The notes beneath the pieces are model-generated. The model saw nothing but the letters and a program-made list of their open reading frames with translations. It had not been told where the DNA came from and did no database searches. Position numbers and translations under genes: made by a program. A DNA stretch of 50,767 nucleotides. Source: a virus. How positions within the stretch are numbered: position 1 is the stretch's first letter; every line of letters starts with the position of its first letter. Shown one piece after another: positions 954 to 50,636 of this stretch. The stretch is from positions 1 to 50,767 of IMG/VR virus record IMGVR_UViG_3300011113_000109. One strand, 5' to 3'.

Positions 954-3773
954 TTATTCGAAAGGTAATAATCTTGAAACAGGGACCACTGAAGGAGTTT
1001 CCTGAGTTGGTGGATCAAAATAAATTCCAGTGTTAGTTCCCTTAATTTGAGTATAATTATCTTCAGCAGGAGCAGAAGCTCTTCTTTTAATTAAAGCTGT
1101 TCTTCTAGAAGCACTATCTCCTGCTCTTTTAACTGGATTGTAAATCTTAGGTCCAAATAACCCAGAGGATATTTCGGTTAATAATCCAGATCTAACATTA
1201 TTTTTAAACTCAGAGAACTGGTTCATATTCATTCTAGAATAGAAATCAAAATAAGTTATCCCTTTATCTAAAACATAATTATCATTTAATTCTTTGATAA
1301 TCTCATACGCAACTCTTAATCCAGTCTTCTTAGTTCTAGTTGGTTTTTCTTGTGTTTTATATGTGTTAGAAAAAATGTTATCAGTTTGAGAGATAGTTGC
1401 TTTTCTCCCATCTAAACTTTCAGAACCATAAATATCTTCTTCAGGATAAGTTGATGTTCTTCTAACTATTGGGTAGTATTGATTAGGTAAATCGGGATTA
1501 AATACTTTCTTATTAGTTGGAATTTTAAATTTTAAAGATCTACTAACAATTCTACTACGCCCTATGTTTAATACTGAAGTTGCAAGTAAAGGATTATATT
1601 CTTGTCTGTCTGTGGGAATGATAATAATATACCAAGGCAAAGTTCTAACTAATATTGGAACTGTTTTATTATTTTTTCTTGAGTGCCCATCAAATCTTAT
1701 ATCATCTTGTGTTAAAGAAATAGAACTTGAAGTTAGCATATGATCTAAAATTAAATCATCATACATAATTGGGAATATCTTATGTGTAGATTTAAATTTT
1801 ATATATTCATTTATAGCACTAAAATCAGCCCGTGTTTCTGTTGGCATTAATTCATATTCTGCAAAAGTTGTATCTAAATAAGGTGATTTTTGTTTTGTAT
1901 TAATGCTATCTGTTTTTAATTTTAAAAAGTACATATCCTGCCGAGTGGTACTTAGATCATATGTAAATTCTACTAAACTGCTATAGTTACTAGATGCAGT
2001 TAAATTTATTTTAGGTTCTCCACCTAACAAAGATATAGCTACATACTTTTCAAATGTACTTATTGTATAAGCGTGATCTTTTTCTGAAGTTAGATAAAGT
2101 CTTCTAGTACCACTGCTTGTAGTAAGATTAATATAATCACCATCTTCAATTTTTAGCCCTGCTCTTGCAATAACTACATCGTCATCATTAATATAATATT
2201 TTGTTTCTACTCCATCAATTATTATTGGAAGAGCTTTCTCAGTATCAGTTGCTAAAGTTTTTACTAGTAAACTATCTTTTCCTAAAAATTGATTACTCGT
2301 ATTTTCAGGATCTAAAGCAACCATAGTTTTTTCTAAATAAGAAAAAGCTAAGTTTATATTTACAGTCGAATTATTTGTTTTTTCAGGAGTGAATATTTTT
2401 GTTTTTTCTTGTTTGCTAAGAATTTCCCAAGAATAAGTATCTATTTCATCTAATTTATTTTCAACTAGTTTTTGTCTTATAAGACCTAAAAAATATTTTT
2501 TAGGAACAAGATCCCCAGTAACATCTCTTATATTAGTTATAATTTTTAACAGGTTATCACTCAAACTATTTTCAATTACCTGTAAATTAAGGTCATAGTA
2601 AGGTTCTGATTTCCAATCTAAAGTTCTTCCATTTCTTTCCAAATAATAACCTACACTTTTATGAACATAGTTTTTAAAAATGTTTAAGTATACTTGGTTA
2701 GGTCTAACTCTATAAATTGTCTCTGGAGTTCTGGCTATTAATGTTAAATCTAAATCTAAATTTGGGGGAGTAATTAAAGATTGGCTAAATTGCCCTGGTG
2801 TTGGAATATTAGAATTTCCTGGGGCATTTTGCTGCAACCCTTGAGTTGGTGGGCATTGACCAACTGTTTGGAAAATTGTTACACAAAAGGAACCTTGTCC
2901 AACTACATCGTCTTGTAACCATGATGGGCAAGCCACTGCTATATTTGTGCTTTGACCAAAGCATTGAGAAGCTCCTACAGCAGTATTATTACAATAAAAA
3001 CCGCCTGTTCCAGGTCCAGGTAGTTTATAACTTACACTGCAAAATCTTCTTTGTGGAATGAATTGTCCTGCAATTGGACCAGGTGCAACTGCTGGGTAAG
3101 TACAAGTGCATCCTTCAATATTACTATTACTATAATTTTCGTAAATATGTTTTGGGCAAGGACCACTTTCTGGCATTAAAGTGTTTGCTATTCCTGTAGC
3201 AGAAATACAAGCATAACAAGCAACTAAATTTATTGTTTGTTGACCATTTGAAGAAACACAAACGGTTTCTCCATACCCACCTAAAGGATCTCTATCTGGA
3301 TGATCTTCATAGCAAGCAGCTTCTGAATTATAAGTTTGTGTTCCGGGGGGACAAGGAAAAATGTCTCCTGGATTATAACTAGTGCATTTTTTAGTAGAAT
3401 TACATTGACAAGTTACATTATTAAACAAAGATTGTACATTAAAAGAAGTAGACCATCCTATTTGTGAGCACCCTCCTCCAAGTCCAGGCCCAGTAAAAGG
3501 ACTAGCCACATCTTCTAAAATCCAAATGGGGGAGGTTCCTGTAACTGTGCAATTACCATCTCCGGGGCCAGTATCTCCAGGACTTGGTTCTAAACCCCCT
3601 CCAGAACCTCCAGGAGGAGTAAAAACATCATTTATTTTTTTTGCATCAAAAAAGGGATTGTCTGGATCGGGAGGTTCTGGCTCTGTCCAACCATCTAGAT
3701 TTGGAGTATAGTTTGGAGGATCAATAAATTCAGGAAGAACTAATTGACATCCAAAAGATAATTTTGTTGTCAT
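954..3773 (-). CDS. Large virion protein with Cys-rich N-terminal third
   Basis: This is a 939-residue protein of unknown family in the late tail operon, directly before the PAAR gene. About twenty Cys fall in the first ~310 residues, among Gly/Pro-rich turns and CxC or CxxC-like pairs (VTCQCN, EGCTCT, CYACIS). I see none in the remaining ~620 residues, which look like ordinary mixed alpha/beta structural sequence. The N-terminus is Pro/Gly-rich (PEPPDPDNPFFDAK, TPPGGSGGG), like a flexible linker. The position suggests a baseplate- or fibre-associated surface protein, with the Cys-rich part perhaps stabilised by disulfides outside the cell. That role is inference. Confidence 0.85.
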   Translation of the reverse strand: MTTKLSFGCQLVLPEFIDPPNYTPNLDGWTEPEPPDPDNPFFDAKKINDVFTPPGGSGGGLEPSPGDTGPGDGNCTVTGTSPIWILEDVASPFTGPGLGGGCSQIGWSTSFNVQSLFNNVTCQCNSTKKCTSYNPGDIFPCPPGTQTYNSEAACYEDHPDRDPLGGYGETVCVSSNGQQTINLVACYACISATGIANTLMPESGPCPKHIYENYSNSNIEGCTCTYPAVAPGPIAGQFIPQRRFCSVSYKLPGPGTGGFYCNNTAVGASQCFGQSTNIAVACPSWLQDDVVGQGSFCVTIFQTVGQCPPTQGLQQNAPGNSNIPTPGQFSQSLITPPNLDLDLTLIARTPETIYRVRPNQVYLNIFKNYVHKSVGYYLERNGRTLDWKSEPYYDLNLQVIENSLSDNLLKIITNIRDVTGDLVPKKYFLGLIRQKLVENKLDEIDTYSWEILSKQEKTKIFTPEKTNNSTVNINLAFSYLEKTMVALDPENTSNQFLGKDSLLVKTLATDTEKALPIIIDGVETKYYINDDDVVIARAGLKIEDGDYINLTTSSGTRRLYLTSEKDHAYTISTFEKYVAISLLGGEPKINLTASSNYSSLVEFTYDLSTTRQDMYFLKLKTDSINTKQKSPYLDTTFAEYELMPTETRADFSAINEYIKFKSTHKIFPIMYDDLILDHMLTSSSISLTQDDIRFDGHSRKNNKTVPILVRTLPWYIIIIPTDRQEYNPLLATSVLNIGRSRIVSRSLKFKIPTNKKVFNPDLPNQYYPIVRRTSTYPEEDIYGSESLDGRKATISQTDNIFSNTYKTQEKPTRTKKTGLRVAYEIIKELNDNYVLDKGITYFDFYSRMNMNQFSEFKNNVRSGLLTEISSGLFGPKIYNPVKRAGDSASRRTALIKRRASAPAEDNYTQIKGTNTGIYFDPPTQETPSVVPVSRLLPFE

Positions 3774-43860: not shown

Positions 43861-43876
43861 AAATTTTTAAAAGGTG

Positions 43877-43916
43877 TTGGAAGTAGTTGGAAGTAGTTGG
43901 AAGTAGTTGGAAGTTC
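43877..43916 (+). repeat. Four tandem 10-bp repeats (TTGGAAGTAG)
   Basis: TTGGAAGTAG occurs three times, followed by a fourth copy with a changed end (TTGGAAGTTC). The 10-bp spacing places copies on one face of the helix, as for protein-binding iterons. AT-rich sequence and a long palindrome follow. It sits in the non-coding stretch 43778-44028. Confidence 0.8.
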
Positions 43917-44112: not shown

Positions 44113-44337
44113 ATGAATAATGGCTTTCCCAATCTGACCCTTTCCTATGTCCGCTCCATCCACCGGGAGGACATCAAGTACAATAACGCCGATGGCACGC
44201 ATTGGACCTCCACTCGCCTGTACTTCAAAAATGAGCAAGGCGTTACGCTTCTGTCGGTAGCCCTCCTCGGGGGCGAAACTGCTCCCGAAATCAAAACCAC
44301 CCCCCTGCGGGATTCGATTCTGGATCAACAACCTTGA
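44113..44337 (+). CDS. Small protein of unknown function
   Basis: This 74-residue protein begins MNNGFPNLTLSYVRS. It has beta strands (WTSTRLYFKNEQGVTLLSVA) and a short Thr/Pro tail. It is preceded by AGAAGGA about ten bases upstream and by a sigma70-like promoter, and followed by a strong terminator, making a complete single-gene unit. Base composition is visibly GC-richer than the structural genes. The family is not recognised. Confidence 0.75.
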   Translation: MNNGFPNLTLSYVRSIHREDIKYNNADGTHWTSTRLYFKNEQGVTLLSVALLGGETAPEIKTTPLRDSILDQQP

Positions 44338-44391: not shown

Positions 44392-44419
44392 TTGCTTTTC
44401 TGGCCTAGTGTGCTAGAAT
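44392..44419 (+). promoter_or_regulatory. Sigma70-like promoter of a non-coding RNA
   Basis: TTGCTT (44392-44397), a 16-bp spacer, TAGAAT (44414-44419). The boxes are identical to those of the promoter at 44029-44056. No convincing ORF follows, but a strongly folded segment with its own terminator does. Confidence 0.7.
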
Positions 44420-44425
44420 GCATCA

Positions 44426-44630
44426 CCTGACAACAAGTAGCACAAGGGCGGTTTGAGCGTAGTTTCGTGGGAAGTTCTACGCTCTTACCCCTCCCCAACC
44501 CGTGCGGATAGCTTGCTTTTGCGATCAGGCTATAAGGGTTGGGGGTTTATTTCTCCCGTTGCCTTGCGGGGCTTCCTTCAAGAAATATCCATCCACCCCC
44601 TCTGGATTCTTGAAGGAAGCCCCCTTTTAT
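44426..44630 (+). ncRNA. Structured non-coding RNA A (about 205 nt)
   Basis: Three helices in series are visible. GAGCGTAG 44455-44462 pairs with CTACGCTC 44477-44484. CCCCAACCC 44493-44501 pairs with GGGTTGGGG 44536-44544, with an inner ATAGC/GCTAT helix. Finally there is a 17-bp perfect terminator stem (44568-44584 with 44607-44623) followed by CTTTTATTATATT. A promoter lies at the correct distance upstream. The 66-codon frame crossing it lacks an SD and does not fit the helices, so I reject it as a gene. It has no similarity I can recognise to 6S, tmRNA or tRNA. Confidence 0.65.
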
Positions 44631-44651
44631 TATATTTGATTTTTTGGTACT

Positions 44652-44759
44652 AGACCTTAGGGGAACTTGTCAAGAACAGGTAGTACTAAGGTCTTACTAG
44701 GTAGGTTTTTTGTCCGTCCTACCTAGGAGGCGTGTAGTTAGTTCCTACACGCCTTTTTT
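44652..44759 (+). ncRNA. Structured RNA B with three successive hairpins
   Basis: AGACCTTAG 44652-44660 pairs with CTAAGGTCT 44686-44694, with an inner ACTTGT/ACAGGT helix. CTAGGTAGG 44697-44705 pairs with CCTACCTAG 44718-44726. AGGCGTGTAG 44728-44737 pairs with CTACACGCCT 44745-44754, followed by six T, which is a strong terminator. No own promoter is clear, so it may be read-through or a processed part of RNA A. No ORF is credible. Confidence 0.5.
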
Positions 44760-44777
44760 GTTTTTATTTTGCAAGGT

Positions 44778-44820
44778 CAGGGGGCCCCGATTACCTAAGT
44801 CCTTTGTTTACAAGGGTTTA
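44778..44820 (+). repeat. 45-bp control element, copy 1
   Basis: TCAGGGGGCCCCGATTACC is followed by TAAGTCCTTTGTTTACAAGG. The tail can fold (TAAGTCCTT with AAGGGTTTA), and its C-G changes keep pairing compared with other copies. It lies 26 bp upstream of the -35 box of the leaderless promoter at 44847. Confidence 0.9.
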
Positions 44821-44846
44821 CAACATAAAAAAATCCTAGATTTAGC

Positions 44847-44875
44847 TTGCAATCCCCTCCTAAATAGCCGATACT
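44847..44875 (+). promoter_or_regulatory. Leaderless-type sigma70 promoter, unit 1
   Basis: TTGCAA, a 17-bp spacer and GATACT, with exactly six bases between the -10 box and the ATG at 44882. The start of transcription should coincide with the A of the start codon. Confidence 0.7.
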
Positions 44876-44881
44876 CCATGT

Positions 44882-45184
44882 ATGAATTACCAAGAAGAGA
44901 TTCGGAAGCTCGTCGAAGAAGCCCTCTCCAACATCCGAGACGGTTATGATGAGCTAGATATTGCAACGGAACTTGCTGAGGGCAGCCGATTGTCGATTTA
45001 CACGGCGAACAACTTTTTAGTGCTAAAAGAAAGCGAGAATTGCAATGCCATGATGGAAAATGGCTTCGGCGATGCGCTCGGCAGTATGAACAGCGTTGCC
45101 GAAATCGTCAGCGCGCTAGCTTTCCACGCGATCCGGCAAGATATTCTCGACGGCGTAAAGGAGAGCCAAAATGAAAAAGTTTAG
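44882..45184 (+). CDS. Small acidic protein of unknown function
   Basis: This 100-residue helical protein begins MNYQEEIRKLVEEALSNIRD and contains an IYTANNFLVLKESENCNAMM segment. The latter resembles a widespread phage small-protein pattern with an 'IYta...vl..s.N..A' core, whose function is unknown to me. No SD is present. The position of the -10 box fixes this ATG, rather than the out-of-frame ATG at 44878, and predicts a leaderless mRNA. It overlaps the next gene by 14 bases. Confidence 0.8.
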   Translation: MNYQEEIRKLVEEALSNIRDGYDELDIATELAEGSRLSIYTANNFLVLKESENCNAMMENGFGDALGSMNSVAEIVSALAFHAIRQDILDGVKESQNEKV

Positions 45185-45371
45185 AGTTACTTGGGTAGAG
45201 CAACAAGAGTGGGAATGCATTATTGAGGCCGAGTCCAAATCGGATGCGGTCAAAAAATGGAACGGTGGGTTCGTCGAGGAGTCAGATAGTCCCCCTGTCG
45301 AAACTAACTGGCATTGCATCGAAACCGATTCGGTAGAAGCACAAGAAATCGAAGATTCAGAGGAGCAATAA
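45171..45371 (+). CDS. Small acidic protein
   Basis: This 66-residue protein has a beta-rich start (KKFRVTWVEQQEWECIIEAE), a helix (SKSDAVKKWNGG) and an acidic C-terminus. The overlap with the upstream gene and a GGAGAG sequence (45161-45166) before its ATG suggest coupled translation. Phages often carry small 'strand-helix-strand' proteins of this type, with unknown roles. A long folded RNA segment follows its stop. Confidence 0.75.
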   Translation: MKKFRVTWVEQQEWECIIEAESKSDAVKKWNGGFVEESDSPPVETNWHCIETDSVEAQEIEDSEEQ

Positions 45372-45588
45372 ACAAACTCGTTCCAGCGAGTCTAAATAGG
45401 GTTTAGGCTGGAAGCGGCGACTATTGAGTCGCGTACCGTTATCAAGATGAAACAATGGTCAGAGTGGTTATCTAACCATTGTTTCTAACCAACTTGATTG
45501 AAGGGAAGACGCTCCCAAGGACATTATAAAAACATCGGTAGCTGGATGTTTTATTTGAAAGGGCTATCTCCTTTCAAAGTTTTTTTTC
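45372..45588 (+). ncRNA. Structured RNA C and terminator (3' UTR or separate RNA)
   Basis: Successive helices are: TTCCAGC 45381-45387 with GCTGGAA 45407-45413; GCGACT 45417-45422 with AGTCGC 45427-45432; ATCAAG 45441-45446 with CTTGAT 45493-45498 enclosing a 10-bp AAACAATGGT/ACCATTGTTT stem (45450-45459, 45475-45484); AAAACATC 45529-45536 with GATGTTTT 45545-45552; and a terminator TTTGAAAGG/CCTTTCAAA (45554-45562, 45570-45578) plus a T-run. No promoter is visible inside, so it may be processed from the mRNA. It is not a recognisable tRNA. Confidence 0.6.
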
Positions 45589-45606
45589 GCGCTAAATAAT
45601 CAATCT

Positions 45607-45647
45607 TAGCAATATCTTAGAAATGCAGAGTTGCTAAGATATTGCTA
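45607..45647. repeat. 14-bp perfect inverted repeat abutting control element copy 2
   Basis: TAGCAATATCTTAG (45607-45620) and CTAAGATATTGCTA (45634-45647) are exact inverses around 13 bases, ending against GGGGCCCC of copy 2. There is no T-run, so it is more like an operator or processing site than a terminator. Confidence 0.85.
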
Positions 45648-45694
45648 TGGGGCCCCCCGATATCACCTAAGTCCTTTGTTTTCAAGCACTTAGG
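45647..45694 (+). repeat. 45-bp control element, copy 2
   Basis: ATGGGGCCCCCCGATATCACC is split as ATGGGGCCCCCC then GATATCACC; after it CTAAGTCCTTTG and CAAGCACTTAGG follow. The flanks CCTAAGT/ACTTAGG pair over 7 bp. The -35 box starts about 30 bp downstream. Confidence 0.9.
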
Positions 45695-45723
45695 AAAACT
45701 TGTAGAAAAACCTGTTTTCCCTG

Positions 45724-45752
45724 TTGACCTTCGCCCCCCAAGGGTGTATAAT
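45724..45752 (+). promoter_or_regulatory. Near-consensus leaderless sigma70 promoter, unit 2
   Basis: TTGACC, a 17-bp spacer, TATAAT, then AGGGGC and ATG. This is the strongest promoter in the region. A GGAAAAC/GTTTTCC inverted repeat just upstream (about 45694-45720) may be an operator. Confidence 0.85.
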
Positions 45753-45758
45753 AGGGGC

Positions 45759-45959
45759 ATGGACAACAACGACTACCTCGACCCGATGGACTGCCAAGTT
45801 CAACCCGAAGAGCGCATCCAAGCTTGGGAACAATCGCCGCTCCAAGCCGAGATGAGCGAAGCCGAGATGGAAGCTTACCGCAAGGATTGGGAAGAGCGGC
45901 AGCGCATCACTCGGGAAGAATTGGTAATGATCATGGAAGAGCTTCTGAAGCGATTCTAG
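45759..45959 (+). CDS. Small acidic protein (leaderless)
   Basis: This 66-residue protein (MDNNDYLDPMDCQVQPEERI and a helical Glu-rich C-terminus EEERQRITREELVMIMEELL-like) starts at the ATG six bases after TATAAT, with no SD. The longer upstream frame runs through the control element and is rejected. Acidity and small size recall phage inhibitors that mimic nucleic acid, but this is speculation. It is followed by structured RNA D. Confidence 0.78.
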   Translation: MDNNDYLDPMDCQVQPEERIQAWEQSPLQAEMSEAEMEAYRKDWEERQRITREELVMIMEELLKRF

Positions 45960-46212
45960 TACACTTTTACCGATTGACAGAGACCCCTGCCTCTCCGTAG
46001 ATGACGCATCCGCGATCAGTTAGGCACAGTTCACCCCGGATGATACTAGTTCAACATTCGGGAAGCTGTCTTAACCGGCCTAACCAGAGCAAGCCTCTTA
46101 TTCTAGGACGCGAAACGGAGTAAACCTTCGTAAAAGTTAGAAAATAATCGGGGAGAGGTCGTTCCCGAAAGTTTTCGGCCCACCTAAGTAGCTACTGGGT
46201 GGGTTTTTTTAT
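45960..46212 (+). ncRNA. Structured RNA D with strong terminator
   Basis: A nested hairpin consists of GTTAGGC 46019-46025/GCCTAAC 46078-46084, ACAG 46026-46029/CTGT 46066-46069 and CCCGGATG 46035-46042/CATTCGGG 46055-46062. A long-range 7-bp helix CCTCTCC 45990-45996/GGAGAGG 46152-46158 could close the domain. The terminator CCCACC...GGGTGGG with a T-run lies at 46179-46209. TTGACA (45974-45979) and a weak TAGATG could make it a separate gene; otherwise it is the 3' UTR of the upstream gene. No ORF is seen. Confidence 0.6.
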
Positions 46213-46229
46213 TTGACTTTTTGGTAATG

Positions 46230-46273
46230 TCAGGGGGCCCCGATTACCTAAGTCCTTTATTTGCAAGCACTTA
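46230..46273 (+). repeat. 45-bp control element, copy 3
   Basis: TCAGGGGGCCCCGATTACC as in copy 1, then TAAGTCCTTTATTTGCAAGC and ACTTA. The tail can form a stem of 5+3 bp. It lies 27 bp from the -35 box. Confidence 0.9.
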
Positions 46274-46300
46274 CAACCACGGATTTCTCTTGATTCTCTA

Positions 46301-46328
46301 TTGCATTCGGAAACTAGGAGTGTAGAAT
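46301..46328 (+). promoter_or_regulatory. Leaderless-type promoter, unit 3
   Basis: TTGCAT, a 16-bp spacer, TAGAAT, six bases, ATG at 46335. Confidence 0.72.
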
Positions 46329-46334
46329 GTGAGC

Positions 46335-46580
46335 ATGGAAGCGCAAAATCCCTACAAAGAAGTTCAAAATGAACTTGCTCACCTGCTCATTGGGCTGGCA
46401 AACTTCACTCAATCAAAGTTTGATTCGAATGAAAAGAAGCATTCGGAAGACTTTGAGGCTGGATTCAAAACAGCAATGATGATTGTCATCACGGGAATCA
46501 CCGAAGTTTATTTGACGGAATTGCAAAAGCGTTCCCAGAATTGGGAAGAGGTTTCAAAGTTTCGCACGGAGGAAAACTAA
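46335..46580 (+). CDS. Small helical protein (leaderless)
   Basis: This 81-residue protein begins MEAQNPYKEVQNELAHLLIG. It has a helical body with a hydrophobic patch (FKTAMMIVITGITEVYL) that may be an amphipathic helix rather than a membrane segment. A GTG at 46329 would add two residues, but the promoter geometry favours ATG 46335. The stop shares one base with the next start (TAATG), so the three genes of this unit are probably coupled. Confidence 0.78.
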   Translation: MEAQNPYKEVQNELAHLLIGLANFTQSKFDSNEKKHSEDFEAGFKTAMMIVITGITEVYLTELQKRSQNWEEVSKFRTEEN

Positions 46581-46861
46581 TGTCCCGCAATACTGAAGGG
46601 TTCTTCTTTGATTTGGTCACTATTCCGTTGAAGGACGGAAAGATGACATTTGAAATAACAATTCATGGGCAATGCCGAATGTGCGGGGAGTTCGATATTG
46701 TGCCCGTGTCAGCGGAACAGTTCCAGGACTGGGCTAATGGTGAAAAGCTGATTCAAGACATCTTCCCGGAATTGAATTCAGATTCGCGGGAATTCCTAAT
46801 CTCTCGCACCTGTGGCAATTGTTTTGAAACTCTGTGGAATGAAATGGAGGAAGAAGCGTGA
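46580..46861 (+). CDS. Zinc-ribbon-like small protein
   Basis: This 93-residue protein starts at the ATG at 46580 with GGAGG about eight bases upstream. CRMC near residue 32 and CGNC near residue 79 give a four-Cys zinc site. Between them lie a beta-rich start (FFFDLVTIPLKDGKMTFEI) and an acidic helix. Longer frames upstream lack an SD. It is likely a nucleic-acid- or protein-binding adaptor. It overlaps the next gene by four bases. Confidence 0.8.
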   Translation: MSRNTEGFFFDLVTIPLKDGKMTFEITIHGQCRMCGEFDIVPVSAEQFQDWANGEKLIQDIFPELNSDSREFLISRTCGNCFETLWNEMEEEA

Positions 46862-47088
46862 TTCGGTGTGCCAATTGCAAATCTGACGAAAACATCAAAG
46901 CGCGTGTAAGCTTCTGGGTCAATCCCAATCTCGGTGTCCGAGAGCAATTGAAGGACAAATCCAAAAAGTTCGTTTTTGTTATGGAAGACGAATACTATTG
47001 CGGGTGCAATCCCAACAAGCTCGCAGATATTATTGATGACGATGAAATTGAATTGGACAAGGATGGATTCGTGATCAATCCTGAATAG
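46858..47088 (+). CDS. Small zinc-binding protein
   Basis: This 76-residue protein starts at GTG 46858 overlapping the previous stop (GTGA) with a GGAGG-type SD. It begins MIRCANCKSDENIKARVSFW; CANC and later YYCGCN give four Cys for a zinc ribbon. The C-terminus is acidic (ADIIDDDEIELDKDG). It is the third gene of the unit that starts at 46335. Function is unknown; two adjacent zinc proteins suggest a common target. Confidence 0.78.
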   Translation: MIRCANCKSDENIKARVSFWVNPNLGVREQLKDKSKKFVFVMEDEYYCGCNPNKLADIIDDDEIELDKDGFVINPE

Positions 47089-47127
47089 AAAATGAATGAT
47101 TGAGACTCTGTGTTACGAAAAGGTAAC

Positions 47128-47173
47128 ATGGGGCCCCCCTAAACTACCTAAGTCCTTTATTAGTAACAAGTTA
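47128..47173 (+). repeat. 45-bp control element, copy 4
   Basis: ATGGGGCCCCCCTAAACTACC follows as ATGGGGCCCCCC, TAAACT and ACCTAAGTCCTTTAT. The tail is more diverged (TAGTAACAAGTTA) and folds less well. A TGTTAC/GTAACA hairpin lies just upstream. Confidence 0.88.
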
Positions 47174-47199
47174 TGTCTAAAATTTATTTGGTTCCTCTC

Positions 47200-47227
47200 T
47201 TGCATTGTGGTAGAAAGGTGGTATTAT
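47200..47227 (+). promoter_or_regulatory. Leaderless-type promoter, unit 4
   Basis: TTGCAT, a 16-bp spacer, TATTAT, six bases, ATG at 47234. Confidence 0.72.
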
Positions 47228-47233
47228 AGTGGC

Positions 47234-47551
47234 ATGAGCGATTCATCTAACTACAACACCTATTGGATGGATACTTTCTATCCTCACTATACTGGTGTCC
47301 CTGAGTTTACCAAGCTGTCTTTGGTGAATTATTTGGTTTATGGGTATCACCCCGGATCTGGTCTAACTTCGATTCTGAAGTCTGATGTGGAAGGGTGTTC
47401 TTTGTTTTTGGATAAAGAGAACAAAAAACACTTTTTCACCATTGTTGCATGGCTTAGAAGCTATGCTCCAGAGGGTTCGTGGGGATCTTCTAAGAATGTC
47501 GAAAACTGGATTCAAAGTAAGCGTGAAGAGCGTGGTAAGGAGGCCATGTGA
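47234..47551 (+). CDS. Small protein of unknown function (leaderless)
   Basis: This 105-residue protein begins MSDSSNYNTYWMDTFYPHYT. It has an aromatic-rich N-terminal half and a helical, charged C-terminus (ENWIQSKREERGKEAM). The upstream-extended frame (from 47096) runs through the control element and promoter and is rejected. The last codons overlap the next gene's GTG (ATGTGA). Confidence 0.78.
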   Translation: MSDSSNYNTYWMDTFYPHYTGVPEFTKLSLVNYLVYGYHPGSGLTSILKSDVEGCSLFLDKENKKHFFTIVAWLRSYAPEGSWGSSKNVENWIQSKREERGKEAM

Positions 47552-47781
47552 AAAATAAAAAGAAAGAGCCGGAAGTTCCTATTGAAACTATCATTCAGCA
47601 ACTCCATAACCGTATTTTGATTCTAAAGATCAAAAAGAAACGCATGGAGAAGCTCTATGAGGAAATGATCAATCATGGGCAAGAGATTCTAGGATCCACA
47701 ATTACCAAGGATCTGGACAAAATCAAAGAACAGATCAACAATTGGGAAAAAGAAACTAGACAGTACGAAGAAAAGATCTAA
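47548..47781 (+). CDS. Coiled-coil small protein
   Basis: This 77-residue, Lys/Glu-rich protein is almost wholly helical (ETIIQQLHNRILILKIKKKR, then LDKIKEQINNWEKETRQYEE). It is translated from a GTG that overlaps the previous stop, after an AAGGAGG SD. The likely role is oligomerisation or adaptor; the family is not recognised. The next 32 bases before control element copy 5 contain only a weak hairpin (AGCC/GGC). Confidence 0.78.
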   Translation: MKNKKKEPEVPIETIIQQLHNRILILKIKKKRMEKLYEEMINHGQEILGSTITKDLDKIKEQINNWEKETRQYEEKI

Positions 47782-47813
47782 TTTCTTCCCAAAGAGGGCT
47801 GTGGAAGCCTTCG

Positions 47814-47857
47814 GCGGGGGGCCCCGTACACCTAAGTCCTTTGTTTTTAAGGGGTTA
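47814..47857 (+). repeat. 45-bp control element, copy 5
   Basis: GCGGGGGGCCCCGTACACC, then TAAGTCCTTTGTTTTTAAGG and GGTTA. The tail can pair TAA/TTA and CCTT/AAGG. It lies 27 bp from the -35 box. Confidence 0.9.
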
Positions 47858-47884
47858 CGAACACAGGATTCTTCGATTTTCCTC

Positions 47885-47912
47885 TTCCAAGGTTTAGAAT
47901 CGATGCTATACT
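47885..47912 (+). promoter_or_regulatory. Leaderless-type promoter, unit 5
   Basis: A weak TTCCAA -35, a 16-bp spacer, TATACT, then AGGGGC and ATG at 47919. Confidence 0.65.
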
Positions 47913-47918
47913 AGGGGC

Positions 47919-48707
47919 ATGGTACATCACTTTCTAACGCTGGAAGAGGTTCAATCCAAGGTTCCTAGTGCGCTGGCTGAGACGCACGATGGGCGCAGGT
48001 CGAACCGTTACAACTTCGTCTCATCTCGCCAGATCATCGAAAGCATGGCAGCGAACAACTGGGGGATCGTTTCGGTTGCTGGCCCTAAGACTCGCACCCC
48101 GGCTAGGACTCAATTCGGGCTTCACAAGATGGAATTCCAGGCTCGGGACAGTTCCCCGATCACGGATCCTCGCAGAGGCGCGATTTACCCTCGCATGATC
48201 GTGATGAACAGCCACAACGGAACCTCCAATTTTTCAGTCCACGCTGGCCTCCTCTGCATGGTCTGCTCAAATGGTCTGGTCGTTTCTGCTGGATCAATTG
48301 GAGAATTCCGAGTGCGCCACAACAATCAATTCAATATTGAGGACGCATTCGCTGCGATTCAACAATTCCGCGAGAATCTCAATCCGATTGTGGGAACGAT
48401 TGAGAAATGGGATGGGATTCAATTGTCGAACGAAAGGGCTATTGAATTCGCGACTCGTGCTGCTCGCATTCGCTGGGACAACGCGCAGGACATTCTCCCG
48501 GATTATGCATCCCTCCTTCAACCCCGTCGCCAGCAAGATCACGGAGGAAGCCTCTGGGCACGATATAATGTCGTGCAAGAAAACCTGATTCGCGGAGGCT
48601 ATTCCCGAAACAATCGCAAGGTGCGGGAAATGAATCAGATTCAAGAAATGATGCGAGTCAATCGGGAACTTTGGGATCTGGGAATCGAATTCGCAAACAA
48701 TAACTGA
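47919..48707 (+). CDS. DUF932-like protein (leaderless)
   Basis: This 262-residue protein shows the DUF932 pattern: N-terminal YNFVSSRQIIESMAANNW, central RMIVMNSHNGTSNFSVHAGL and LLCMVCSNGLVVSAGSIGEF, then helical FNIEDAFAAIQQFRENL. DUF932 proteins are common on phages and plasmids, and their function is unknown. The start is leaderless, and a strong terminator follows. GC content is clearly higher than in the structural genes. The DUF932 assignment is by pattern and needs a profile search. Confidence 0.83.
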   Translation: MVHHFLTLEEVQSKVPSALAETHDGRRSNRYNFVSSRQIIESMAANNWGIVSVAGPKTRTPARTQFGLHKMEFQARDSSPITDPRRGAIYPRMIVMNSHNGTSNFSVHAGLLCMVCSNGLVVSAGSIGEFRVRHNNQFNIEDAFAAIQQFRENLNPIVGTIEKWDGIQLSNERAIEFATRAARIRWDNAQDILPDYASLLQPRRQQDHGGSLWARYNVVQENLIRGGYSRNNRKVREMNQIQEMMRVNRELWDLGIEFANNN

Positions 48708-48711
48708 GAAT

Positions 48712-48741
48712 CCTACCCCCTGAGTGATGACGGGGGGTAGG
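48712..48741 (+). terminator. GC-rich hairpin after the DUF932 gene
   Basis: A 9-bp stem CCTACCCCC (48712-48720) with GGGGGTAGG (48733-48741), without a T-run. Together with the next hairpin it makes a tandem terminator. Confidence 0.55.
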
Positions 48742-48756
48742 TGGGTTGGAAGCCCT

Positions 48757-48812
48757 GAGGCTCCCCTAGCTGGGTATCAGAGTCGCCTAGCTACGGGGAG
48801 CCTCTTTTTTTA
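48757..48812 (+). terminator. Strong intrinsic terminator
   Basis: GAGGCTCCCC (48757-48766) pairs with GGGGAGCCTC (48795-48804), with an inner TAGCT/AGCTA helix. TTTTTTTATT follows. It ends unit 5. Confidence 0.9.
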
Positions 48813-48824
48813 TTCGAAATTTAT

Positions 48825-48870
48825 ATGGGGCCCCCCGCCATTACCTAAGTCCTTTATTTACAAGCACTTA
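48825..48870 (+). repeat. 45-bp control element, copy 6
   Basis: ATGGGGCCCCCCGCCATTACC read as ATGGGGCCCCCC, GCCATT and ACCTAAGTCCTTTATTTAC, then AAGCACTTA. The tail stem TAAGTCCTT/AAGCACTTA has 5+3 bp. The -35 box is 37 bp away, the longest distance in the set. Confidence 0.9.
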
Positions 48871-48907
48871 GAGCGTCAAAATACTTCAAACTTTTTCCAT
48901 TTTCTTC

Positions 48908-48936
48908 TTGTGTTTCTAGGTTTCTAGGTCGATACT
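48908..48936 (+). promoter_or_regulatory. Leaderless-type promoter, unit 6
   Basis: TTGTGT, a 17-bp spacer, GATACT, then TGGGGC and ATG at 48943. Confidence 0.7.
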
Positions 48937-48942
48937 TGGGGC

Positions 48943-49653
48943 ATGAGCAAGACTAGCGAAGCAATCGAGAGTGGGCGCACGGTCTATCTTCAATCCCTCA
49001 AGGGTTCGGATTACACCCATAGAGTCGTGAAGCCCAGCACCAATAAAAAGTTAGGAAAGAAAGTAAAGAAAGGCCCAGCGTCGTGGAAGGGTGCGATCAT
49101 TTATACTTTGACGCTGGAGGAGCGGAATACTTGCCCTACCTACTGTGCAATGTGGGAAAAATGCTACGGGAATAATATGCCCTTCGCTCACCGAATGTCT
49201 ATGCCGGATAGTGAACTAATGGCTAGACTGGCAAAAGAGATTGAAAGCCTGTGTGCTACTTATCAGAAAGTAGCGATTCGCCTTCATGTGCTAGGCGATT
49301 TCTTTTCTGTCGAATATACGGAGTTTTGGATTCGCCATTTGAATATGTATCCTAATCTTTATATTTGGGGATACACGGCCCATAAGTATGATACCAATAT
49401 TGGGCGGGATATTAGTTATGCGAACAGACATTTCCCAGATAGATGTCTGATTCGATTCTCCAATAGCAAGGAATCATGTCCCGATTCCGGCATCTATTCA
49501 GCTAATGTTTTCGAGGAAGAGGAGGATTCTATTACTTGCCCCGAACAACTCGGAAAGTGTGAATCGTGTGCAGATTGTGGATTGTGTTGGAATAAGCATA
49601 TTTCTAAGCCTATCCGATTTATTGAGCATCCAAAAAGGAAGAATAAAAAATGA
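48943..49653 (+). CDS. GP88-family-like protein (leaderless)
   Basis: This 236-residue protein has motifs of the phage GP88 family: TCPTYCAMWEKCYGNNMPFA, then RLHVLGDFFSVEYTEFW, IWGYTAHKYDTNIGRD, and a C-terminal Cys cluster (CESCADCGLCW). The many Cys suggest a metal or Fe-S centre. Its enzymatic role is unknown to me. The start is leaderless and unit 6 continues into the next gene via ATGA. The GP88 call should be checked with a profile search. Confidence 0.82.
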   Translation: MSKTSEAIESGRTVYLQSLKGSDYTHRVVKPSTNKKLGKKVKKGPASWKGAIIYTLTLEERNTCPTYCAMWEKCYGNNMPFAHRMSMPDSELMARLAKEIESLCATYQKVAIRLHVLGDFFSVEYTEFWIRHLNMYPNLYIWGYTAHKYDTNIGRDISYANRHFPDRCLIRFSNSKESCPDSGIYSANVFEEEEDSITCPEQLGKCESCADCGLCWNKHISKPIRFIEHPKRKNKK

Positions 49654-49928
49654 CACCTGAAGAGAATTTTGAGTTTTGTATCTCTGGAAGATCTAAGGAG
49701 TTTCAATATTATTGCCAATGCGGAGCTAATATTGGACTAAAAAAAAGAATAGTCCACAAACAAAGAACCTGTCCCTGCTGTGGAGAATCAATAACTATAC
49801 AGAATATTGATTTTCAGACAGCACAATTCGTGGAATATTATGAGAGAAACCGAGTTCCCTCATGGTCAGAGGTTGGGGGTTACTTATTGGATATGATCTT
49901 CTCCAAGAAAAAAAAGAAAAGATCATAA
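49650..49928 (+). CDS. Zinc-ribbon protein downstream of the GP88-like gene
   Basis: This 92-residue protein (MTPEENFEFCISGRSKEF) has CQCG and CPCCGE, typical zinc-ribbon knuckles near residues 22 and 41. The C-terminus is basic (FSKKKKKRS). It overlaps the upstream gene by four bases. The TAA stop forms the first bases of the inverted control element copy 7, so the end of the gene and the element are fused. Confidence 0.8.
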   Translation: MTPEENFEFCISGRSKEFQYYCQCGANIGLKKRIVHKQRTCPCCGESITIQNIDFQTAQFVEYYERNRVPSWSEVGGYLLDMIFSKKKKKRS

Positions 49929-49971
49929 GTGTTTGAAAATAAAGGACTTAGGTAACCTAGGGGGGCCCCAT
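49926..49971 (-). repeat. 45-bp control element, copy 7 (inverted)
   Basis: Read on the minus strand it is ATGGGGCCCCCC, TAGGTT and ACCTAAGTCCTTTATTTTC, then AAACACTTA. It is the only inverted copy and has no promoter or gene in the usual place. It closes the array at its right border. Confidence 0.88.
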
Positions 49972-50174: not shown

Positions 50175-50636
50175 GTGAAAATACATAACTCTAAGAGTTA
50201 TGACCTATATAATAGTATGGAAAATATATTATCTAAAGAAACGCAGACATTACTTGCAAAACATAATCTAAAAAGATTAGCCAAGCTTGACTTTTTAGCA
50301 AAAGAAGAAAAGAAAAAAAATCTAAAACAAACTAAAAAGGAAACTAAAAAGAAAACTAGAAAAATAAATGAAGAAACATACAAACTGAATTTAAAAAGAT
50401 CAAGAACTCTAAAAAAAGCTAATAAACAAAAAGCATTAGAATATTGTGGAGGTAAATGCTCTATTTGTAATTATAATAAATGCCCTGCTGCCCTTCACTT
50501 TCATCACAAAGATCCACAAACAAAAACAAAACAAGTTTCTCAATTGCTAACTTATGATTGGAATATAATAAAAGAAGAATTAGATAAATGCATTCTTCTT
50601 TGTGCTAATTGCCATCACGAAATACATTGGTTCTAA
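50175..50636 (+). CDS. HNH endonuclease
   Basis: This 153-residue protein has a Lys-rich N-terminal half (EEKKKNLKQTKKETKKKTRK) and a C-terminal HNH domain: CSICNYNKCPAALHFHHKD and LLCANCHHEIHW, with paired CxxC zinc ligands and the catalytic His-His. The start is uncertain: GTG 50175 or ATG 50217, neither with a good SD. The gene is AT-rich like the structural region, unlike its GC-rich neighbours on the left. It is likely a free-standing homing-type nuclease. Confidence 0.85.
   Translation: MKIHNSKSYDLYNSMENILSKETQTLLAKHNLKRLAKLDFLAKEEKKKNLKQTKKETKKKTRKINEETYKLNLKRSRTLKKANKQKALEYCGGKCSICNYNKCPAALHFHHKDPQTKTKQVSQLLTYDWNIIKEELDKCILLCANCHHEIHWF

Follow-up and report, generated by a model that had tools for sequence, protein, structure and literature searches.

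Repeated regulatory sequences placed among small viral genes have been described in several settings. The PeSLs (promoter-early stem-loops) of T4-type phages are repeated promoter cassettes with an inverted repeat that lie between small genes in a variable region and carry evidence of cassette shuffling, and a motif of haloarchaeal virus HGTV-1 is similar to them. In cluster K mycobacteriophages, the ESAS elements are imperfect 17-bp inverted repeats found upstream of the 13-bp start sequence GGGATAGGAGCCC, and their function is unknown (PMC3203893). Leaderless transcripts also have precedents: a set of middle and late transcripts of Thermus phage phiYS40 is leaderless (PMC3594737), and a TANNNT hexamer about 12 bp before the start codon is a mark of leaderless genes in published surveys (PMC3160421). 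Here we consider virus record IMGVR_UViG_3300011113_000109, all 50,767 bases of which make up what we call the window. In it six gene units open with the same element, a GC-rich palindrome followed by a two-fold symmetric sequence (the dyad), and with a promoter predicted to start transcription at the A of the ATG. We propose that the array is a series of regulatory cassettes, repeated within the non-structural genes of a T4-like phage, and that its putative operators and leaderless first genes would be switched together by a dimeric, phage-specific regulator. To this explanation, taken as a whole, we assign a probability of about 0.55.

The terminase (TerL) and portal genes of the window are T4-like by PHROG matches. 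GC content is about 33% over most of the window but rises to 41-51% in a block spanning about 44-50 kb; the same kind of step is present in the relative L066. Within the block, from 44.8 to 49.0 kb, lie six units, all on the + strand, each opened by GGGGCCCC, the dyad and then the promoter, and most units hold internal genes besides the first gene. A preliminary description of this DNA spoke of a shared element of roughly 45 bp. Such an element does recur at all six starts, though it is better described as the GC palindrome GGGGCCCC followed by a 25-bp dyad of 9-7-9 geometry, TAANNNCTT-N7-AAGNNNTTA. The window form of the dyad is TAAGTCCTT-N7-AAG(C/G)NNTTA, the right arm of copy 4 being degenerate, and the 7-bp centres are TGTTTAC, TGTTTTC, TATTTGC, TATTAGT, TGTTTTT and TATTTAC. 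The sequence ACCTAAGTCCTTT has seven exact copies in the window, six on the + strand and one on the − strand; with up to two mismatches there are 9 matches, versus 2.5 expected in shuffles. GGGGCCCC also occurs seven times, versus 0.10 expected, and solely within the seven elements. The earlier count of six units is right for the + strand, but it missed the seventh, inverted copy at 49926-49969.

At each of the six starts (44882, 45759, 46335, 47234, 47919 and 48943) a −10-like hexamer ends exactly 6 nt before the ATG, just as first reported, so that its first base lies 12 bp before the ATG; in start order the hexamers are GATACT, TATAAT, TAGAAT, TATTAT, TATACT and GATACT. The earlier counts of GGC before the ATG in four starts, and of GGGGC in three, are likewise correct. 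No Shine-Dalgarno sequence (SD) precedes any of the six first genes, again as claimed, whereas all five internal genes of the window units have one. This is the pattern expected of leaderless first genes with SD-led followers, and the claim that every unit is leaderless must accordingly be narrowed to the first genes. The promoters were called sigma70-like in both boxes. That holds for the −10 at all six, but several −35 boxes are poor (TTGTGT, CTTCCA) and a consensus promoter scan lists just one of the six. The interval from element to −35, given before as 26-37 bp, is 25-37 bp when measured from the dyad end. Because the promoter scores are weak, the case for leaderless promoters rests on position and conservation.

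Is the spacing kept in related phages? The preliminary description had proposed looking there for motif and promoter, and had made the constancy of the −10 to ATG distance a test of its reading. The relatives are partial genomes from uncultured viral contigs, found by pattern and protein searches, and the arrangement of element and leaderless promoter is present in six other groups of them (L028, L022, L024, L029, L030 and L070). All 37 dyad units of the seven phage groups have a −10 to ATG gap of 6 nt (32 units) or 7 nt (5 units), with start codons assigned by rule and the second ATG having to be used in two units; before background ATGs of the same loci the gaps spread over all values. The anatomy of the cassette and its exceptional spacing are thus conserved in seven phage groups. 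Individual genes tell the same story. The GP88 gene keeps the dyad and leaderless promoter in phages W (the window), R, X and Y, whose proteins are 41-89% identical, and likewise in L029 and L030; other GP88 relatives (32 loci, L031-L064, some near-identical) are without the dyad and start mostly with an SD. The DUF932 gene has the arrangement in phages W, R and X at 31-50% identity, and the protein of window unit 2 is 73% identical to that of the L028 gene at 4402, which is leaderless and carries the element there too. Promoter similarity to the orthologous gene in a relative is 0.86, 0.69 and 0.78, versus 0.56 among the window promoters. A natural contrast is provided by L028 gene 3188, which has the dyad and a leaderless start, and its window relative at 44113, in which an SD and a leader are present and the dyad is missing. 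Upstream of this SD-led window gene, at 43867-43914, there is a 10-bp tandem repeat, TTGGAAGTAG.

The dyad itself is probably the DNA site of a phage-specific regulator, to judge from how its arms vary. In the 38 dyads compared, TAA/TTA at the outer ends of the arms and TT/AA at the inner ends hardly change, positions 4-7 take one of two forms, GTCC-like or CCCC-like, and the 7-bp centre varies. The centre is characteristic of each phage, as is the triplet ahead of AAGT, which reads CCT in the window, GCT in L022, CGT in L024 and CGC in five of the six units of L028. As RNA the arms pair poorly, with a mismatch at position 6 in 21 of the 38 dyads and at position 4 in 14, and with poor pairing at position 7 as well; stem energies run from 0 to −9 kcal/mol overall and from 0 to −5.5 kcal/mol for the window dyads. 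Arms that are conserved yet mispaired suggest selection unlike that on an RNA stem, and a protein dimer on DNA is the better fit. From dyad start to ATG the distance is 86 bp in most units and 96-97 bp in others, with 80, 88-91, 98 and 101 bp in other phages. We rejected the idea that the fixed dyad-ATG distance is an artefact: compared across phages it varies from 80 to 101 bp, but in steps near one helical turn.

The mechanism we envisage runs as follows. Each cassette would comprise a GC-rich boundary, a two-fold DNA operator, a sigma70-type promoter 25-37 bp further on, and an ATG at the predicted first base of the transcript. Host RNA polymerase would start at the A of the ATG at each cassette promoter, the first gene would be translated from a leaderless mRNA, and later genes would be translated via their SDs. 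A dimeric phage-specific protein bound to the dyad, some 60-95 bp upstream of the start site, would set the timing, which we expect to be early, and the strength of transcription, and would throw all the units in one switch. The weak −35 boxes make activation likelier than repression as the sign of its action. The GC palindrome and nearby terminators would separate the units, and cassette shuffling is a likely companion process.

The cassettes are laid out on the + strand as follows. Element 1 (44781-44820; palindrome 44781-44788, dyad 44796-44820, TAAGTCCTT-TGTTTAC-AAGGGTTTA) and promoter 1 (44847-44881; TTGCAA-17-GATACT, 6 nt to the ATG) precede unit 1 (44882-45371), which has a leaderless open reading frame (ORF) at 44882-45184 (100 aa) and an SD-led ORF at 45171-45371. 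Element 2 (45649-45692; palindrome 45649-45656, dyad 45668-45692, TAAGTCCTT-TGTTTTC-AAGCACTTA) is followed by promoter 2 (45724-45758; TTGACC-17-TATAAT, AGGGGC, ATG) and by unit 2, a single leaderless ORF of 66 aa (45759-45959). Unit 3 (46335-47088) has a leaderless ORF at 46335-46580 and SD-led ORFs at 46580-46861 and 46858-47088, behind element 3 (46234-46273; GC palindrome, dyad 46249-46273) and promoter 3 (46300-46334; TTGCAT...TAGAAT, GTGAGC, ATG). In unit 4 (47234-47781) a leaderless ORF (47234-47551) and an SD-led ORF (47548-47781; AGGAGG) follow element 4 (47130-47173; GC palindrome, dyad 47149-47173 with the degenerate right arm) and promoter 4 (47199-47233; TTGCAT...TATTAT, AGTGGC, ATG). 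A profile search placed two of the array first genes in named families. One is the leaderless DUF932 gene of unit 5 (47919-48707; PF06067, E 4.6e-27), which stands behind element 5 (47818-47857; GC palindrome, dyad 47833-47857) and promoter 5 (47884-47918; CTTCCA-17-TATACT, AGGGGC, ATG). The other is the leaderless GP88-family gene (48943-49653; PF17338, E 6.7e-12) of unit 6 (48943-49928), which also has an SD-led ORF at 49650-49928 and lies behind element 6 (48827-48870; GC palindrome, dyad 48846-48870) and promoter 6 (48908-48942; TTGTGT-17-GATACT, TGGGGC, ATG). On the − strand, inverted element 7 has its dyad at 49926-49950 and its palindrome at 49962-49969.

Other features are found in and around the array. 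A pistol ribozyme (RF02679; 45376-45438, + strand, 55.4 bits versus a gathering threshold of 34.5) lies in the 3' region of unit 1. In L028 (2339-2400) and L024 (2440-2516, − strand) a pistol ribozyme likewise lies between a unit and the element that follows it; the role of the ribozyme is possibly 3'-end trimming. L024 has in addition a short tmRNA-family match inside its element array (3176-3258, − strand; 54.8 bits over 83 nt). Non-coding stretches near the window units (44400-44760, 45439-45645 and 45960-46150) fold more stably than shuffles, with z of about −3 to −6, which is partly due to terminator hairpins. An HNH endonuclease gene (50175-50636) lies just past the inverted element, and a similar-looking gene precedes the L028 array (311-763); homing may act at array edges. 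We note also that the 33%-GC structural genes at 1-42112 are mostly without an SD (6 of 23 have one of at least 4 nt), unlike the internal genes of the array, so that two initiation styles exist within one genome.

Does the dyad belong to leaderless genes alone? A broad form of it, AAGTCNTTGATTTNNAAGGNNTT, has at least 141 unique sites in viral contigs, where we estimate that about 1-2 chance matches would be expected; it is found in more than 100 uncultured phage contigs (for example L153, L155, L190, L194 and L211), with up to ten near copies in one 14.6-kb contig. Among the matches listed, 89% of the 141 sites are intergenic though 84% of the DNA is coding, and a strong promoter follows 30 of 121 sites versus 2.2 in shuffles. 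The −35 is mostly at +30 to +57 from the start of the motif, and the genes behind these promoters are mostly SD-led. Leaderless promoters that lack the dyad also exist in the array phages. The element is therefore separable from leaderlessness, and the earlier treatment of the two as one device is not supported in that form: the dyad is a module that sits upstream of promoters, and being leaderless is a trait of the array phage set. In several contigs a pair of dyads points outward from a GC-rich centre that is GGGGCCCC or resembles it (L153 960-1021, 1467-1528 and 4376-4437; L155; L022 851-927), in a form like that of a bidirectional boundary. Isolate phages and plasmids gave one weak broad-motif match each, and the window element was not found in isolate phages. 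The open literature searched did not contain the broad motif, its text matches being unrelated by title and probably primers. Exact 17-mer scans of viral contigs gave mostly single chance matches, and gapped and consensus patterns were used instead. As a host repeat the element was rejected: three cellular genome records of 0.9-3.8 Mb hold 2-4 matches at two mismatches, close to the 0-1 of a reversed-pattern control. An IHF site (WATCAANNNNTTR) was rejected as the whole explanation, since the window copies read TTTGTT or TTTATT in place of TTGATW; the broad motif and the L022 copies do fit the IHF consensus on reading (TAAGTCNTTGATT). A bolder, tentative view, which we think rather doubtful, is that the dyad is a widespread code, in which a dimeric regulator of many uncultured phages would read TAANNNCTT-N7-AAGNNNTTA upstream of sigma70 promoters, each phage having its own operator variant, and in one set would govern wholly leaderless units whose mRNAs could be translated under altered initiation conditions.

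Several observations weigh against the proposed regulator and its operator array. The inverted seventh copy has no promoter or ORF behind it, which is unexpected for an activator site; an inverted copy 3' of GP88 is also present in L027, L028, L029 and L030. Pfam matches show no regulator among 20 array proteins. Units of one phage commonly differ by roughly a helical turn in the spacing of dyad and promoter (86 with 96/97; 80 with 90), but the nominal p of about 0.0025 is optimistic because copies are related by duplication, and element copies inside one phage are not independent; moreover, phage groups are about half a turn out of phase with one another. Finally, the scarcity of good −35 boxes among dyad promoters (five of 35 match at 5/6 or better) speaks for the regulator, but the contrast with dyad-less leaderless promoters is biased, as the latter were found with a −35 filter.

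What else might account for the array? The element might mainly be a homology block, PeSL-like in joining promoter and boundary, for swapping unrelated small genes, with its closeness to promoters a result of whole-cassette copying. The genes of window unit 2 and L028 unit 1 are unrelated, yet the element and the spacer next to it (GCACTTAGGAAAACTTGTAGAAA) are common to both; likewise, a common spacer and promoter stand ahead of the unrelated genes of L028 units 3 and 5. The L022 promoters are near-copies of one another, and most array genes are small ORFs without a Pfam match. Yet the dyad arms are kept between phages whose intervening DNA is not, and the intervening length changes in steps near one turn, neither of which pure homology blocks need. 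As a first cause shuffling seems to us unlikely, and it is in any case compatible with the operator reading. It is also conceivable, though improbable, that the GC palindrome and dyad act in RNA as an insulator or terminator ending the preceding unit's transcription. The inverted copy at the end of the last unit would suit this role, and terminators with a T-run are found immediately ahead of elements 1 and 3 and also ahead of element 6. In broad-motif copies the right arm is often followed by a T-run (93 of 125 sites have T at position 23), and some of these copies stand directly behind apparent tRNA 3' ends. The window-type elements, however, have no T-run and their arms mispair, on which grounds we rejected an RNA hairpin or terminator as the identity of the dyad, and three of the six already have a separate terminator in front of them.

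Ordinary or short leaders, with the −10 match incidental or the start sites elsewhere, would sit well with the weak −35 boxes and the single promoter found by the scan. We think this very unlikely in view of the 6-7 nt gap in every unit, of first genes without and internal genes with an SD, and of the agreement with the published TANNNT mark. Least probable of all, in our estimation, is that the elements are tyrosine-recombinase sites and the units excisable cassettes. The 9-7-9 geometry recalls core-type integrase sites, the arms are common to phages whose centres differ, and the copies form a direct array with one inverted end copy; but the 7-bp centres differ among copies of one phage, where most such enzymes need identical overlaps, promoter distance would be irrelevant, and no recombinase was seen among the window proteins scanned.

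From its sequence the array makes a case for a leaderless regulon, with a precisely defined putative operator, in phages that have no cultured relatives at this level. Behind the broad form of the dyad there may be a common regulator that cultured models have not revealed. Where a gene has an SD leader in one phage and a leaderless start in another, the natural pair should help in asking what a phage gains from leaderless translation.

How, then, does the array stand beside the known systems? In layout the PeSLs and the HGTV-1 motif are nearest. Like the PeSLs, the array belongs to a T4-like phage; it has repeated sigma70-like promoters between small genes, where the PeSL promoters are early ones. 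The PeSL motif includes a stem-loop terminator, and here the arms pair poorly, there is no T-run in the clade, and separate T-run terminators stand before just three of six elements; the array further differs in having its inverted repeat upstream of the promoter and the ATG at the predicted transcript start. In pattern the cluster K ESAS is nearest; its inverted repeats recur ahead of some of the non-structural genes and follow a subcluster-specific consensus (PMC3203893). The window has instead 9-bp arms, a 7-bp centre and a sigma70 promoter between dyad and start, and GGGATAGGAGCCC is absent from it with up to two mismatches. The preliminary description held a phage region of wholly leaderless units with one shared upstream element to be unusual; for a set of leaderless phage transcripts phiYS40 is a precedent, though one for which no shared dyad is mentioned (PMC3594737). 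With bacterial leaderless genes the array shares TANNNT about 12 bp before the start codon (PMC3160421; also PMC12340547), and it differs in coupling this signature to a repeated operator-like dyad in a phage. Since no known system is matched in its defining features, we file the array as a variant of these systems, rather than as a member of any one.

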